DNA of 37,325 nt from a virus, in the IMG/VR virus record IMGVR_UViG_3300035698_007828, positions 1-37,325 of that record; one strand, 5' to 3'. Made by a program: the position numbers and the translations under genes. The notes under the pieces were generated by a model that worked only from the letters and a program-made list of their open reading frames with translations, was not told the origin of the DNA and did not search any database. This document shows, one piece after another, positions 17,056-36,832 of this stretch. Within the stretch, counting starts at the first letter, position 1, and each line of letters starts with the position of its first letter.

Positions 17056-18003
17056 CTAGGCTACTGCCGCGGTGATTAAATATCCACAATTAGAATCAAC
17101 AATCACTTGATCGTAAGCTTCGTTAACTTGAATATACATAGCTTTCATTTGTAGAAGTTTGGAATCGCTATTAAGAGGCTTAACAGATACTTCTCTATTA
17201 ACCTTTTGAGCGTATGTATAAGCAAGAGTTCGAGATTTTAGAGTTGGTCTTGGTTCGATATAAGCAAGAATAACATTCTTACCCCATACGTCTGCTTTTG
17301 TAGCACTTACTCCTTTTGCGGCTGAGTTATAAACAGCACTTCCAACGATAACATCTTGAATACCGAAGATTGATCCTAAAGCACTTGCTAATTGATCTTT
17401 TGTAATCACTTGAGCACCTGGAAACATAGCAACGATGTCAGGATGATACATTAATTTTTGCATTACAGCCCATCCGAGCGACATTGTATTCACAATTTTA
17501 CCAAAAGCATTATCTCTAACACTTGCAATTCCAGTAGTAATATCATCAAGAGGATCTGAATTATTGTAATCAGACCATTGACTTGTACCAGAAAGGGTTG
17601 TGTAGTTAGTCAAGACGGAAGTGTCAGTTAAAGAAGTTGCCAAAGCATATTCTTTTCCTAAAGCAATAACGTCCATTAGATTTTCAGTTGTATCGATTTT
17701 AGGTTTGAGTGGGTTTTCGGCATTATCTAGAACCTCTTTTGCGATATATTCACCAATTTGATGATCTTCAATGAAATAATGATCTGCTACACTAACAGAA
17801 CTATCCATTATATATCCAGAAGCACCTTCTGCTTTAATTGTGTTTACGATTCTTAAATGATCAGAACCGTAGGTCATTATTTTACCCGATTGATTTTTTA
17901 CAGGTACGGTTGGGGCTAATATCCCATTAATCATGTTACCTGGCGAATAGCGTAAACTTACATTTTGTAATCTTTTGCTATCGTATGTATTTGTTGAAAT
18001 CAT
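17056..18003 (-). CDS. Major capsid protein
   Basis: 315 residues with the layout of the HK97-fold 'major capsid protein E'-like group: an extended N-arm (SLRYSPGNMINGILAPTVPVK), a long helix region (IGEYIAKEVLDNAENPLK), and a conserved C-terminus (AYTYAQKVNREVSVKP). Context is decisive: it follows the protease/scaffold and decoration genes. The N-arm contains no obvious protease cleavage signature. Confidence 0.85.
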   Translation of the reverse strand: MISTNTYDSKRLQNVSLRYSPGNMINGILAPTVPVKNQSGKIMTYGSDHLRIVNTIKAEGASGYIMDSSVSVADHYFIEDHQIGEYIAKEVLDNAENPLKPKIDTTENLMDVIALGKEYALATSLTDTSVLTNYTTLSGTSQWSDYNNSDPLDDITTGIASVRDNAFGKIVNTMSLGWAVMQKLMYHPDIVAMFPGAQVITKDQLASALGSIFGIQDVIVGSAVYNSAAKGVSATKADVWGKNVILAYIEPRPTLKSRTLAYTYAQKVNREVSVKPLNSDSKLLQMKAMYIQVNEAYDQVIVDSNCGYLITAAVA

Positions 18004-29919: not shown

Positions 29920-30540
29920 TTAAATTAAATTTAAAGATGTTGCGGACTCTCTGCTTATATATGTGTCTCTTCCTTCGATAGTTATTTTAACCTTATCATT
30001 ATTTAATTTCTTTCCTGTGATGTCTTCTACTAATTTACTTGCTTCCTCATCCCATATATCTAGTTTTGTAAGTGACTCTAAATCCTCAAAATCTATCTGG
30101 TCAACCAATTCTTCATATTGTTTTTCTGTATATTGCTTGTTGAAAAGCATATAACTCTTTCCTGTTTGATCCTTACAGAAACTACACTTATACATTCCTT
30201 TACAATCTTTCAGATAATAACAAGCATACAAACCTTTTGATTCTGTGTTTTCACTTGAACGATAAAGTCCGCATGAGGTTGTGTTTTCATTTGAATAATA
30301 AAGACCCCGTGAGTCTGTGTTTTCATCTGAACAAGAAAGCCCGTATGCGGTTGTGTTTTTATTGGAACCATAAAGCCCGTATGCGGTTGTGTTTTTATTG
30401 GAAGCAGAAAGTCCGCATGCGGTTGTGTTTTCATTTGAAGTAGAAAGTCCGAATGAGTCTGTGTTTTTTTTGGAGCTATAAAGTCCGTATGAGCTTGTGT
30501 TTTCGTTTGAATCAGAAAGTCCGAATGAGTCTGTGTTCAT
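29920..30540 (-). CDS. 12-residue tandem-repeat (beta-solenoid-like) protein
   Basis: 206 residues. Nine tandem units of 12 residues (about 2-109) follow the pattern N-T-x-S/A-x-G-L-x-x-S-x-E/K. Such short G/N/S/T repeats predict a beta-solenoid stack. Next comes a cysteine-rich turn (CYYLKDCKGMYKCSFCK, 110-126) and a C-terminal domain that contains MLFNKQYTEKQYEELVDQ. I recall similar NKQYT segments in uncharacterised candidate-phylum bacterial proteins but could not check. It could bind a host surface or mimic DNA, as pentapeptide-repeat proteins do (speculation). Confidence 0.7.
   Translation of the reverse strand: MNTDSFGLSDSNENTSSYGLYSSKKNTDSFGLSTSNENTTACGLSASNKNTTAYGLYGSNKNTTAYGLSCSDENTDSRGLYYSNENTTSCGLYRSSENTESKGLYACYYLKDCKGMYKCSFCKDQTGKSYMLFNKQYTEKQYEELVDQIDFEDLESLTKLDIWDEEASKLVEDITGKKLNNDKVKITIEGRDTYISRESATSLNLI
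30237..30537 (-). repeat. 36-bp tandem repeats inside the repeat-protein gene
   Basis: About eight imperfect 36-bp units with the shared core GTCTGTGTTTTC or GGTTGTGTTTTT on the plus strand. They encode the 12-residue units. Repeat number is likely to vary between strains by slippage or recombination. Not a CRISPR: no spacers. Confidence 0.8.
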
Positions 30541-30728
30541 AGTGGTTTAGTTATGTTATTTAATCTTGATAGTTTTATAACTTTGTCTGTTGATTCAATA
30601 TATCCTAATAGTAAAAAAACATTAGAATGACAAGGACAAGTTTCTTCATTAACACACCTAGCATAATATTTTAAATTTCTTAACCAGCTAATCGGTACGT
30701 TTATCATTTCTACAGGCTTTTTACTCAT
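30537..30728 (-). CDS. Hypothetical small protein
   Basis: 63 residues, with CVNEETCPCHSNVFLLLGYIE (C25, C31, C33, H34), a possible metal site, and a basic N-terminus. Overlaps the repeat-protein start by 4 bp. Its transcript arises in or upstream of the structured region at 30740-31437; a perfect TATAAT lies at 30763-30758 but with a poor -35. Confidence 0.5.
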   Translation of the reverse strand: MSKKPVEMINVPISWLRNLKYYARCVNEETCPCHSNVFLLLGYIESTDKVIKLSRLNNITKPL

Positions 30729-31437
30729 AATGAGTTAGTTATTGTTTTGAATATAAAATTATAGTAAATGTAGTTAGTAATATTTAACACTCATTCCCCT
30801 CTACCTCTCAAGGGTTAGGGGTAGCCTTAGGCGATGACACAGTTTTTATACTTGTCAACCTTATTGCTAAGACTTGTTAATAATTTAGTGATCCCTTGTT
30901 ATCGTTTCCTTTTATATATTCCCCCCTACGGATCTCCGACACCGTAATCGCTCAATGGGAATATTTAGAGATTATCCTTATTGCCTCTAAATTGATCGGA
31001 CGGAGCCTCTTGCTCCTTTGTATTAACATTTTAATCTTTAAAGCCCATAAATGAACTAGATCTTAAGGTATTGAGACTGGGATCGCCTGTTCGGCCTCAA
31101 TAATTAATACTCTGTAAAGTCGCCTACCCTGCACGACTGCAAAATATAATATAATTTCTATAATCCTTGGTTCTTTCTACATATTCCTTCATAGAGCTGC
31201 CTCCACTAAAGTTTCACAAGATTTGAATGTACGGTTTTGGATCAATCGGCTATGGCACGATTTACTTACTTGATCCATGTTTTGGGTATAAAGAAAAACC
31301 CTAGGTCAGAAGTGAATGGTGCATATTAAGGTGAGGGTTTCTCTCCTCTCCATACACCCCTGACCCGGGGCTTTTGTTCTTAATATGCCTTTCCACTATA
31401 CTTTATTATTTTATAAAAGTAAAGTAGTGTTTATTGG
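30729..31437 (-). ncRNA. Candidate large structured non-coding RNA
   Basis: About 700 bp with no credible long gene. Inverted repeats in order along the minus strand: 31428-31395 (9 bp, bulged), 31388-31379/31330-31321 (10 bp), crossing 31366-31360/31309-31303 (7 bp), 31276-31270/31245-31239 (7 bp with inner 4), 31138-31134/31122-31118, 31102-31096/31075-31069 (7), 31016-31012/31006-31002, 30991-30985/30970-30964 (7), 30964-30957/30923-30916 (8, inner ACGG/CCGT), 30832-30824, 30821-30796. This density resembles large phage RNAs such as GOLLD or ROOL in style only; I cannot match it to a family. Strand inferred from neighbours. Confidence 0.55.
31303..31388 (-). promoter_or_regulatory. Pseudoknot with U-tract, start of the structured region
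   Basis: On the minus strand GCATATTAAG pairs with CTTAATATGC (10 bp) and GGGTCAG with CTGACCT (7 bp, one G-U) in crossing order, an H-type pseudoknot. The 3' arm is followed by AGGGTTTTTCTTT. AAACCCT (31340-31334) can instead pair with AGGGTTT (31302-31296), a terminator-like alternative. It resembles the pseudoknot at 32148-32202. Confidence 0.5.
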
Positions 31438-31442
31438 TTAAA
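31425..31442. repeat. Intergenic leader repeat (copy without a start codon)
   Basis: TAGTGTTTATTGGTTAAA occurs at 31425-31442 and again at 31656-31673, with a relative at 31758-31774 (TAGTGTTTAAAGGTTAA). On the minus strand it reads TTTAACCAATAAACACTA; in the upstream copies it ends in the ATG of a gene, but here the ATG is missing (ACTACTTTA). The two exact copies flank the gene 31438-31656. Confidence 0.7.
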
Positions 31443-31656
31443 TGATTTCTTTAGATTTGATCGTATTAGATTTTTTATAGTTCTTGCTTTGCTCAATCCA
31501 CTCTTCTGCCTCTTTTATAGTATTATAGTTTAATGAGGAGCTTGCTCCTCCTTGATAATACTTTATACAATCAAACCATAAAAATAAGACTTTCTTTTGA
31601 GGACTAAAATACATTGATCCATCCATCATTGTCACTTTTTTTATTCTATATTCCAT
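31438..31656 (-). CDS. Hypothetical small protein
   Basis: 72 residues. MEYRIKKVTMMDGSMYFSPQ, then a W/F-rich strand and EAEEWIEQSK, the pattern of small uncharacterised phage proteins that display a query-like beta fold. Flanked by exact 18-bp direct repeats. Start context AATAAACACTATG. Confidence 0.55.
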   Translation of the reverse strand: MEYRIKKVTMMDGSMYFSPQKKVLFLWFDCIKYYQGGASSSLNYNTIKEAEEWIEQSKNYKKSNTIKSKEII

Positions 31657-31668
31657 AGTGTTTATTGG

Positions 31669-31758
31669 TTAAAAAATAATATATAGAAATATCCATAATG
31701 CAATCCCCCACAGAATATATTTAATTACCCATAATACTTCGACCGCTTCGGCTTCCAT
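31669..31758 (-). CDS. 29-residue membrane peptide
   Basis: MEAEAVEVLWVIKYILWGIA...: a short acidic N-terminus and one hydrophobic helix (about 9-29). The recurrent start context TTTAAACACTATG strongly supports translation despite the size. Possible small regulator of the membrane or of another protein. Confidence 0.55.
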   Translation of the reverse strand: MEAEAVEVLWVIKYILWGIALWIFLYIIF

Positions 31759-31763
31759 AGTGT

Positions 31764-32124: not shown

Positions 32125-32141
32125 AATAATAATTTATTAAA

Positions 32142-32202
32142 TAAAAAGCACTGGCGTTTCCCAAGCATAATGCCCCACCAGTACTCTTCAAGTTTGGGAA
32201 AC
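32142..32202 (-). promoter_or_regulatory. Leader pseudoknot / attenuator
   Basis: On the minus strand GTTTCCCAA (32202-32194) pairs with TTGGGAAAC (32164-32156), 9 bp, and GTACTGG (32184-32178) pairs with CCAGTGC (32154-32148), 7 bp with one G-U. The helices cross, forming an H-type pseudoknot, with a small GCA/TGC hairpin inside. TTTTTATTT follows at once (32147-32139). It lies in the 5' leader between promoter and gene: a likely termination-control element or riboswitch-like RNA. No known class matches from memory. Confidence 0.65.
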
Positions 32203-32228
32203 TTATAGGGCGAAACTACTTCATATTA

Positions 32229-32258
32229 ATTATATAGTATTTTGTATAGTTTAGTCAA
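32229..32258 (-). promoter_or_regulatory. Promoter for the 32124-leftward operon
   Basis: TTGACT (32258-32253), 18-bp spacer, TATAAT (32234-32229). Its -35 abuts the terminator-like hairpin at 32258-32293. Confidence 0.7.
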
Positions 32259-35101: not shown

Positions 35102-35123
35102 AGTGTTTTGTTATTTCTTATAT

Positions 35124-35151
35124 AATATAATACGTTGTATACTTTTGTCAA
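35124..35151 (-). promoter_or_regulatory. Main early leftward promoter
   Basis: TTGACA (35151-35146), 16-bp spacer, TATATT (35129-35124), about 23 bp before the first early ATG. It diverges from the promoter at 36017 across the palindrome array. Confidence 0.7.
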
Positions 35152-35175
35152 GCTTTAAAATATAGCGCAGCATTA

Positions 35176-36004
35176 GCCTTGTACAAGCCACAATCGTTTT
35201 AGGGCCTAACACAAGCCATTTTTGCAAAAGCAAGAACACCAAATCAGGCGTTTAGAGCTTACACTAGCGGTAATCTAGGTTTGATTTGTGATGCTCTAGT
35301 GCGCTTGTATAAGGCCAAAAGCATGGGTTGTTTTGCTTGTTGGTAAGCCCTGGAGAGCGTCGGCCCCCTGTTCTGCGTGGCTTGTACTAGCGGTGCGCAA
35401 AGAAAAACGCCCTTGTTGTGGGCTTATATAAGCGCATAAAAAACTGAAAATGGAAAAACTTTGGGCTTGTATAAGGGCACAACTCCATTTCTCTCTTTTT
35501 GACCTCCAAAAATCAATGTTTTACCCTGTTTTTGAGGTCATTTCTCTAACCTGCGCACTCCTCCGTCTAGTATGTTACGTTTTAAGCATACTTAATTTTA
35601 TAGATATGTTATCTGATAGAAATCTTCAATACTTGAAACTGCGGGCTAATAAACATGTTCCCGAGGCTTAGATAAGCGATTTATGTACACAAGATTTATA
35701 CAGTTTTTTCACGTAGTAGTGTTTTGGTACCCCAACGATTATGGCTTGTACAAGCGCGACTTGGGTTCTTGTTTTTAGGCCCTATGCACAGATTGAATTC
35801 TCTCGCGTTTTTATCCAAAAGAAGATACACGGTGCCCCTTTTTGTACTTCATGGGTAGACAACTCACTATATGGCCCCCAAACACTATCTATTGGGTGAA
35901 ATGTATGCCTGTTTTGCACCACTTATGCACCGCAAAATAGCGACACGCTAGTGCGTATATACAAGCCCTTGCTAGCCTCGAAAAAAGAAATGGCTTACTT
36001 AAGC
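35176..36004. repeat. Array of dispersed 12-14-bp palindromes (candidate origin/operator region)
   Basis: At least ten imperfect copies of GCTTGTAYAAGC: 35176, 35257, 35303, 35335, 35380, 35422, 35464, 35666, 35744, 35993, and inverted at 35955-35967; a looser copy is at 35203-35216. Examples: GCTTGTACAAGCGC, GCTTATATAAGCGC, GCTTGTACTAGCGG. Near-consensus DnaA boxes lie at 35782-35790 (CTATGCACA) and 35923-35931 (TTATGCACC). No gene is evident in 35102-36343. The region is more GC-rich than its neighbours. Function inferred. Confidence 0.75.
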
Positions 36005-36016
36005 CCTGCGAATCTA

Positions 36017-36045
36017 TTGACAAAATACGATGGCTATGGTATAAT
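36017..36045 (+). promoter_or_regulatory. Consensus sigma70 promoter for the CAP gene
   Basis: TTGACA (36017-36022), 17-bp spacer, TATAAT (36040-36045): a perfect consensus promoter, pointing right. The ATG lies about 290 bp downstream, leaving a long leader (36053-36343). Confidence 0.9.
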
Positions 36046-36343
36046 GATAGTACAAGGTAGAAACAGGCGCCAAGTTGGCATACAGAAGCTCTAAAATAAA
36101 AGACAAATCCTCATGTTCCTTAAAAATCAGGGGCAAACAAAAAAACGAAGAGATGGATCACTGGCTGATCTAATTTTGGTAATCGTCTAATGTCATCAGT
36201 TATTCCACTGACATCCAAGTCAATACATATTCTGAAATCGTAATGGACTAATCCTATTTATAGGCACGGTTGAATCAGTTTGGCTATTAGAAAAGTTACA
36301 ATCCACGCTCATTATATATACTTCGAATCATTAATTTGAATTA
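36046..36343 (+). promoter_or_regulatory. Long 5' leader of the CAP gene
   Basis: About 290 nt with no convincing gene. A bulged hairpin joins 36190-36200 and 36207-36214 (ATGTC/GACAT plus AGT/ACT) and a small one is CCTA-TTTA-TAGG (36252-36263). Such a long leader may hold a regulatory RNA; I recognise no riboswitch class. No SD precedes the ATG. Confidence 0.4.
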
Positions 36344-36832
36344 ATGAAAAAGTTTACAAGGCTATTAATAGCTTTGTTGCTAGGCCTCACACTGTTGGGG
36401 CCGGTACTCATTCCTGTTCCTGTTTACGCAGCTACAGGCTATCGAGGCAATTACGTCGCCGCTTTAAATGTAAAACGTGCAAATCATGGTCTCCCAGCTT
36501 TAACTGTTAAAGGCACGCTCGTTACAAAAGCCGCAGGTGCTTATAACCTTTTAGGCCTTAAGTACACCTACCTTCGCAACTTTGCAGACTACGCAAATTT
36601 CCATAATCTAAATGGTTTTATCGTAGCACCGCATACAGTTAGAGTTCCCCATACTGGAGGAGCCACTAAGTTCGTCATTCCTCCTACAGGAAACGCAACT
36701 TATATCGTCAATGGAAGTGCATATGCTGATTACGTTCTTGGAAACTACAAGTACGTTGGAGCTTATGGCGATACTGAATATCGAGGATTGGGTAGCGCTC
36801 ATGGCGTCGTCGTTGTTGTCTTTGGCAACTAG
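36344..36832 (+). CDS. Secreted CAP/SCP-like domain protein
   Basis: 162 residues; the only clear rightward gene. Signal peptide 1-29 (LLIALLLGLTLLG, ending VPVYA). The mature protein begins NYVAALNVKRANHGLPALTVKGTLVTKAAGAY, the helix-1 pattern of the CAP (SCP/PR-1) domain, followed by G/Y-rich strands (GNYKYVGAYGDTEYRGLGSAHGVVVVVFGN). CAP proteins are secreted and often bind lipids, sterols or surfaces. The usual paired catalytic-like H/E residues are not obvious. Its strand, perfect promoter and composition differ from the rest of the genome, so it is probably a moron expressed from the host RNA polymerase, perhaps acquired from a host. Confidence 0.7.
   Translation: MKKFTRLLIALLLGLTLLGPVLIPVPVYAATGYRGNYVAALNVKRANHGLPALTVKGTLVTKAAGAYNLLGLKYTYLRNFADYANFHNLNGFIVAPHTVRVPHTGGATKFVIPPTGNATYIVNGSAYADYVLGNYKYVGAYGDTEYRGLGSAHGVVVVVFGN

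Follow-up and report, generated by a model that had tools for sequence, protein, structure and literature searches.

A 709-bp stretch without genes in a phage genome folds more stably than shuffled sequence on the strand of the phage genes, and it opens with a strong local hairpin element in which two interleaved helices compete ahead of a U-rich tract. Our preferred, though tentative, reading is that of a structured non-coding leader whose opening conditional terminator would control transcription into the small-gene operon running from 30728 downward. The window, by which we mean the whole stretch of DNA analyzed, is a 37,325-base viral record (IMGVR_UViG_3300035698_007828, positions 1 to 37,325). 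Its first 127 bases recur at the right end, as in circular phage assemblies, and its minus strand carries head, tail, portal, and terminase genes together with a long run of small early genes.

The gap (30729–31437, minus strand) is flanked by the minus-strand genes 31438–31656 and 30537–30728 and contains no open reading frame of note. Across its exactly 709 bp, no stop-to-stop frame of the minus strand exceeds 38 codons, and none of the seven translated frames matched PHROGs. The first-pass annotation, which had described about 700 bp of gene-free sequence, was right on this point; as far as one genome allows, there was also no sign of the conserved reading frame that it had set against an RNA. 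A small frame at 31127–31195 (MKEYVERTKDYRNYIIFCSRAG) with GGAGG in front was disbelieved; the phage's other genes have no such Shine-Dalgarno sites upstream, and many stand behind an A/T-rich leader ending in AACACTATG. The gap itself opens with a 17-nt exact copy (TTAACCAATAAACACTA, 31425–31441, minus strand) of the leader that precedes the ATG of the upstream gene (31656–31672), here with no ATG after it. Among the neighboring coding sequences, a 29-aa minus-strand frame (MEAEAVEVLWVIKYILWGIALWIFLYIIF, window positions 31672–31761) lies behind the same TAACCNNTAAACACTATG leader and probably encodes a short membrane peptide, at a length that the usual ORF cut-off misses. The minus strand at 29920–30540 encodes a protein of 206 aa; a unit of about 12 residues (GLYxSNENTT-like) is repeated in tandem through its first half.

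The annotation erred in stating that the gaps of this genome otherwise measure tens of bases. There are further gaps of about 1.2 kb (1,242 bp, 35102–36343), about 0.5 kb (493 bp at the right end, joined in the circle by 142 bp at the left end), 240 bp, and 182 bp. The 1.2-kb stretch has no clear genes and contains, at 35176–36006, about 10 quasi-palindrome copies like GGCTTGTAYAAGCS, which resemble iteron or operator sites. A 162-aa plus-strand frame at 36344–36832 has a signal-peptide-like start and lies in higher-GC DNA on the strand opposite to the other genes; it matched neither Pfam nor any of 362 Patescibacteria genomes. At 32140–32258 (minus strand), inside the 182-bp gap, a good promoter match (TTGACT-18-TATAAT, 11/12) is followed by a hairpin stretch of about 85 nt with a strong stem that ends in UUUUU. 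It is a candidate gene for a small RNA, with both promoter and terminator of its own, and no relative was found in the phage collection.

Perfect inverted repeats are more numerous in the 709-bp stretch than expected. We counted eight perfect stems of at least 7 bp against a mean of 2.83 in dinucleotide shuffles, and eight strong stems (at least 16 hydrogen bonds) against 2.26; in both cases, none of 200 shuffles reached eight. This bears out the earlier description of the region as hairpin-rich. The hairpins said to abut exactly do so, the 8-bp arms 30916–30923/30957–30964 and 30963–30970/30985–30992 overlapping at bases 30963–30964. The minus-strand fold of the 709 nt reached −176 kcal/mol (z −3.27), and none of 160 shuffles was as good, so that the comparison with shuffled sequence proposed by the annotation returned an excess. 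The plus strand gave z −1.1, and the minus-over-plus energy difference of −16.9 kcal/mol was reached by 0 of 120 shuffles. Among 105 other 709-base windows, after GC correction, only four equal its minus-strand fold; the region is thus high but not unique. Interleaved strong helices numbered five against 0.71 in shuffles (3/150), a modest excess located mostly within 31285–31397. Together, the folding beyond that of shuffles, its dependence on the strand, and the surplus of stems support a structured RNA on the gene-direction strand.

The folding signal sits at the 5′ end of this RNA. In a sliding 110-nt analysis, the excess was found at 31397–31288 (z −3.8), and no other stretch went beyond −2. 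Taken alone, 31285–31397 scored z −3.9 on the minus strand, where 0 of 100 shuffles were as stable, and z −3.3 on the plus strand. The other ~555 nt (30729–31285) gave a fold z of −1.0 (18/100 shuffles) and no strand effect (difference reached by 27/100), while strong perfect stems were still in excess there (5 vs 1.65 in shuffles; 1/100). As a yardstick, the genuine tmRNA of a related phage (G001) scores only z −1.7 (6/100); thus, a weak energy score is no proof against structure.

The 5′ element (31285–31397, minus strand) consists of two competing helices followed by a U-rich tract (GGGUUUUUCUUUAU). Helix A (31321–31388) joins the perfect 10-bp arms GCAUAUUAAG (31388–31379) and CUUAAUAUGC (31330–31321). 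Helix B (31294–31375) is interleaved with A and comprises 20 bp, with the arms 31375–31368 plus 31366–31355 and 31314–31303 plus 31301–31294. Because the 5′ arms of the two helices are only 3 nt apart, pseudoknot geometry suggests on steric grounds that A and the full B could hardly coexist. On a nascent prefix ending before the 3′ arm of B, helix A dominates (−26.4 kcal/mol). On the full-length element, enforcing A gave −36.1 kcal/mol and enforcing B in full −40.9 kcal/mol, and the unconstrained optimum (−42.0 kcal/mol) uses most of helix B. By these energies, a mutually exclusive alternative helix forms earlier on the nascent chain, as in an attenuator. Helix B is directly followed by UUUUUCUUUAU, as the stem of a terminator would be; some of these U residues are paired with AAAA. 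Directly before the element lies a promoter-like TTTACT-17-TATAGT (31395–31423, minus strand; 9/12 of the consensus), a match at chance frequency, as 13 of this quality were found and 13.6 expected. A terminator scan did not list the minus-strand hairpin, owing to its long loop, and listed one on the plus strand (31358–31370).

The predicted anatomy is what an attenuator or conditional terminator would show, as would a plain strong terminator in which helix A is a coincidence. Like the intrinsic terminators and attenuators found in the leaders of bacteria and phages, the element has a long stem followed by a U-rich tract and an upstream competing helix that forms earlier; unlike them, it has stems inside a large loop and no close relative in sequence, and its termination is a candidate function. 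The likeness to a working attenuator is therefore one of anatomy only.

The computations show that genes are absent, that stems and minus-strand folding exceed those of shuffled sequence, and that two helices of the stated energies compete; from this we infer a scheme in which promoter use, transcription, termination, and switching would regulate the operon. The stretch is non-coding and would be read, if at all, on the minus strand, which is the direction of the phage genes. The transcript would start with the bistable element of about 110 nt (31397–31285), on which helix A would form first. The 20-bp helix B, more stable by about 5–6 kcal/mol and followed by its U-rich tract, could then replace A and end transcription like an intrinsic terminator. 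If A were favored, be it through a protein or ligand, through translation, or through the speed of the polymerase, read-through would follow across a hairpin-bearing leader of about 490 nt into the small-gene operon starting at 30728. This scheme draws on the stability of the element (z −3.9), the better folding of the whole region on the gene strand, the interleaving of the perfect helix A with B and the energies of both, and the promoter-like site and U-rich end that bracket them. It is weakened by the lack of a homologue, and hence of covariation, by the chance frequency of the promoter match, and by the terminator scan, which lists a hairpin here on the plus strand and not this one on the minus strand. 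Moreover, plus-strand folding of the element is good too, which a bidirectional terminator would also show, and a plain terminator of the upstream gene requires no switch.

The alternative that we place next, while considering it unlikely, is such a strong and perhaps bidirectional intrinsic terminator behind gene 31438–31656, followed by about 490 nt of neutral spacer or lost-gene remains. The confinement of the excess to the first element agrees with it, as does the presence of other long gaps in the genome. The best argument for a lost gene is the 17-nt leader copy without a start codon, which is what the loss or replacement of a gene would leave behind, and the best argument against it is the stem excess of the ~555 nt, where only 1 of 100 shuffles held as many strong perfect stems. 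A neutral half-kilobase would also be costly in a compact phage genome, and helix A would have no role in a plain terminator.

The hairpins beyond the 5′ element, all on the minus strand, were located by stem analysis. They comprise an 8-bp hairpin UGGAUCAA/UUGAUCCA (31238–31277), a 9-pair hairpin UAUUGAGGC/GUCUCAAUA (31069–31102), a GC-rich 5-bp hairpin GGAGC/GCUCC (31002–31016), an 8-bp hairpin AUUUAGAG/CUCUAAAU (30963–30992), and, abutting it, an 8-bp hairpin AUAUUCCC/GGGAAUAU (30916–30964) with an inner ACGG/CCGU stem. In the 3′ group (30796–30898), whose helices were named from the sequence, CAAGGG/CCCUUG surrounds AGUCUUAG/CUAAGGCU, and CCCCU (30821–30817) may form a pseudoknot with AGGGG (30800–30796). 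The terminator scan found no terminator at the 3′ end of the gap on the minus strand.

The stretch belongs to no RNA family in Rfam that we could recognize. A scan that included introns, at gathering and permissive thresholds, returned nothing above threshold and weak matches at chance level only, in agreement with the annotation, which had been unable to match the region to GOLLD or ROOL. These two are phage and prophage RNAs that often lie near tRNA islands, the proximity of GOLLD to tRNA being frequent but not universal, and ROOL forms a homo-oligomeric cage (PMC12286853). The GOLLD model (RF02032), which in Rfam covers the conserved 3′ region, had no match up to E 10 in the record or in the permissive scan. 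The ROOL model (RF03087) had none in the record, the ROOL-only run being weak alone as the control genomes were also without it. Group I and group II intron covariance models were likewise unmatched in the record. The phage has no tRNA genes, and there is no tRNA island near the gap. The gap resembles GOLLD as a large non-coding stretch of a phage genome with many hairpins and possible pseudoknots, and differs from it in the missing model match, the lack of tRNA genes nearby, and an energy excess restricted to the first ~110 nt. With ROOL it shares the phage location and a similar length (the model has 574 positions), but neither a model match nor a tRNA island. Membership in either family is not supported.

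We rejected a tmRNA reading, as there are no tRNA-like ends, ARAGORN and Rfam (RF00023) were negative, and permissive ARAGORN made only implausible overlapping calls. The gap does have in common with the tmRNA of G001 that it would be a multi-helix RNA with pseudoknots in a phage with a related capsid gene. That tmRNA (IMGVR_UViG_3300047496_000100, L009 19396–19847; tag AGRDLVLA) lies directly beside a tRNA-Met, and another relative, G035, has a weaker tmRNA call (L120 18159–18579). A further capsid relative, G013, contains an 827-nt gap (L134 17020–17846) with a fold z of about −6.6 (0/40 shuffles); it had no Rfam match and no relative among the collected loci, and its excess does not lie in the 17060–17360 part.

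Searches for relatives of the 709-nt sequence gave none. DNA searches were negative in phage and plasmid collections, in about 53–55 viral records related by capsid (MCP), and with nhmmer --max over the collected loci. We also built single-sequence covariance models of the 3′ group (R1) and the 5′ element (R2), neither of which found a homologue among the relatives. DNA search and R1 found no homologue in 80 loci related by terminase (TerL) or in 380 Patescibacteria genomes. The two best R1 matches and a shared stretch near 551–591 were rejected, as the scores were low and the stretches in L311 and L316 lie in or next to protein-coding sequence; an R2 match in L072 is a repetitive inverted repeat with no relation to the element. 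The exact pattern CTAACCCTTGAGAG occurs in 84 loci, none with wider similarity, and protein queries with the early genes returned no useful relative. The capsid relatives are scattered (35–53% identity), and the closest annotated terminase, that of Flavobacterium phage 11b, is 30% identical. The two best capsid relatives, L015 and L016 (MCP 52% and 48%), and the best terminase relative, L321 (TerL 44%), are fragments too short to include the corresponding region. The failed search covers the collections named here and does not thereby establish that close relatives are absent.

As to the host, the genes of a 44.7-kb capsid relative (G006; IMGVR_UViG_3300028595_000022, L128–L130) have open frames only when TGA codes for an amino acid, which suggests that TGA is recoded in its host. 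Because of this relative, and because Patescibacteria assemblies contain two of the capsid relatives, the host may be a member of the Patescibacteria.

Doubtful, and ranked after the terminator with spacer, is a trans-acting RNA of about 600–700 nt that would fold as one object, GOLLD- or ROOL-like (self-assembling or a scaffold), in a new sequence family. The whole-region z of −3.27, the eight strong stems, and the five interleaved helices all speak for it, and so do the five strong stems kept by the 3′ ~555 nt, whose weak energy score is compatible with the z of the multi-pseudoknot G001 tmRNA. However, the excess in energy and the strand difference are lost once the first 110 nt are removed, and such an RNA has neither a 3′ terminator, an Rfam match, nearby tRNA genes, nor a second copy in any phage searched. 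Less probable again is a new family of large (~650 nt) structured phage RNAs, unrelated in sequence to GOLLD, ROOL, or OLE, with a pseudoknot or bistable opening domain, in a phage that maybe infects Patescibacteria. Of the large ~700-nt RNA that the annotation had proposed, the structured RNA on the gene strand stands, by fold, strand, and stem excess, whereas its full length draws no support from an energy excess limited to the first ~110 nt, from the Rfam result, or from the homologue search. Because no relative of the sequence was found, a giant phage RNA over the whole 709 bases is neither demonstrated nor excluded. Finally, a DNA-level element (an operator array, replication origin, or recombination site) with inverted repeats acting as DNA is improbable. 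The several perfect inverted repeats, among them the 10-bp GCATATTAAG/CTTAATATGC pair, speak for it; against it, the one-strand folding advantage, unexpected for such an element, favors an RNA read in the gene direction, and the repeats share no common sequence, unlike the iteron-like set at 35176–36006.

At present, what has been found is one strong local hairpin within an orphan region of non-coding sequence, for which the searches found no relative. The best reading is a possible RNA or leader that is structured, does not code, and would begin with a conditional terminator; an orphan large RNA is less likely. Should the conditional terminator prove real, a phage lineage that has no cultured members would offer a candidate regulatory switch. 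If the whole stretch is one folded RNA, the class of large phage RNAs, whose role has yet to be explained, would gain a further member.
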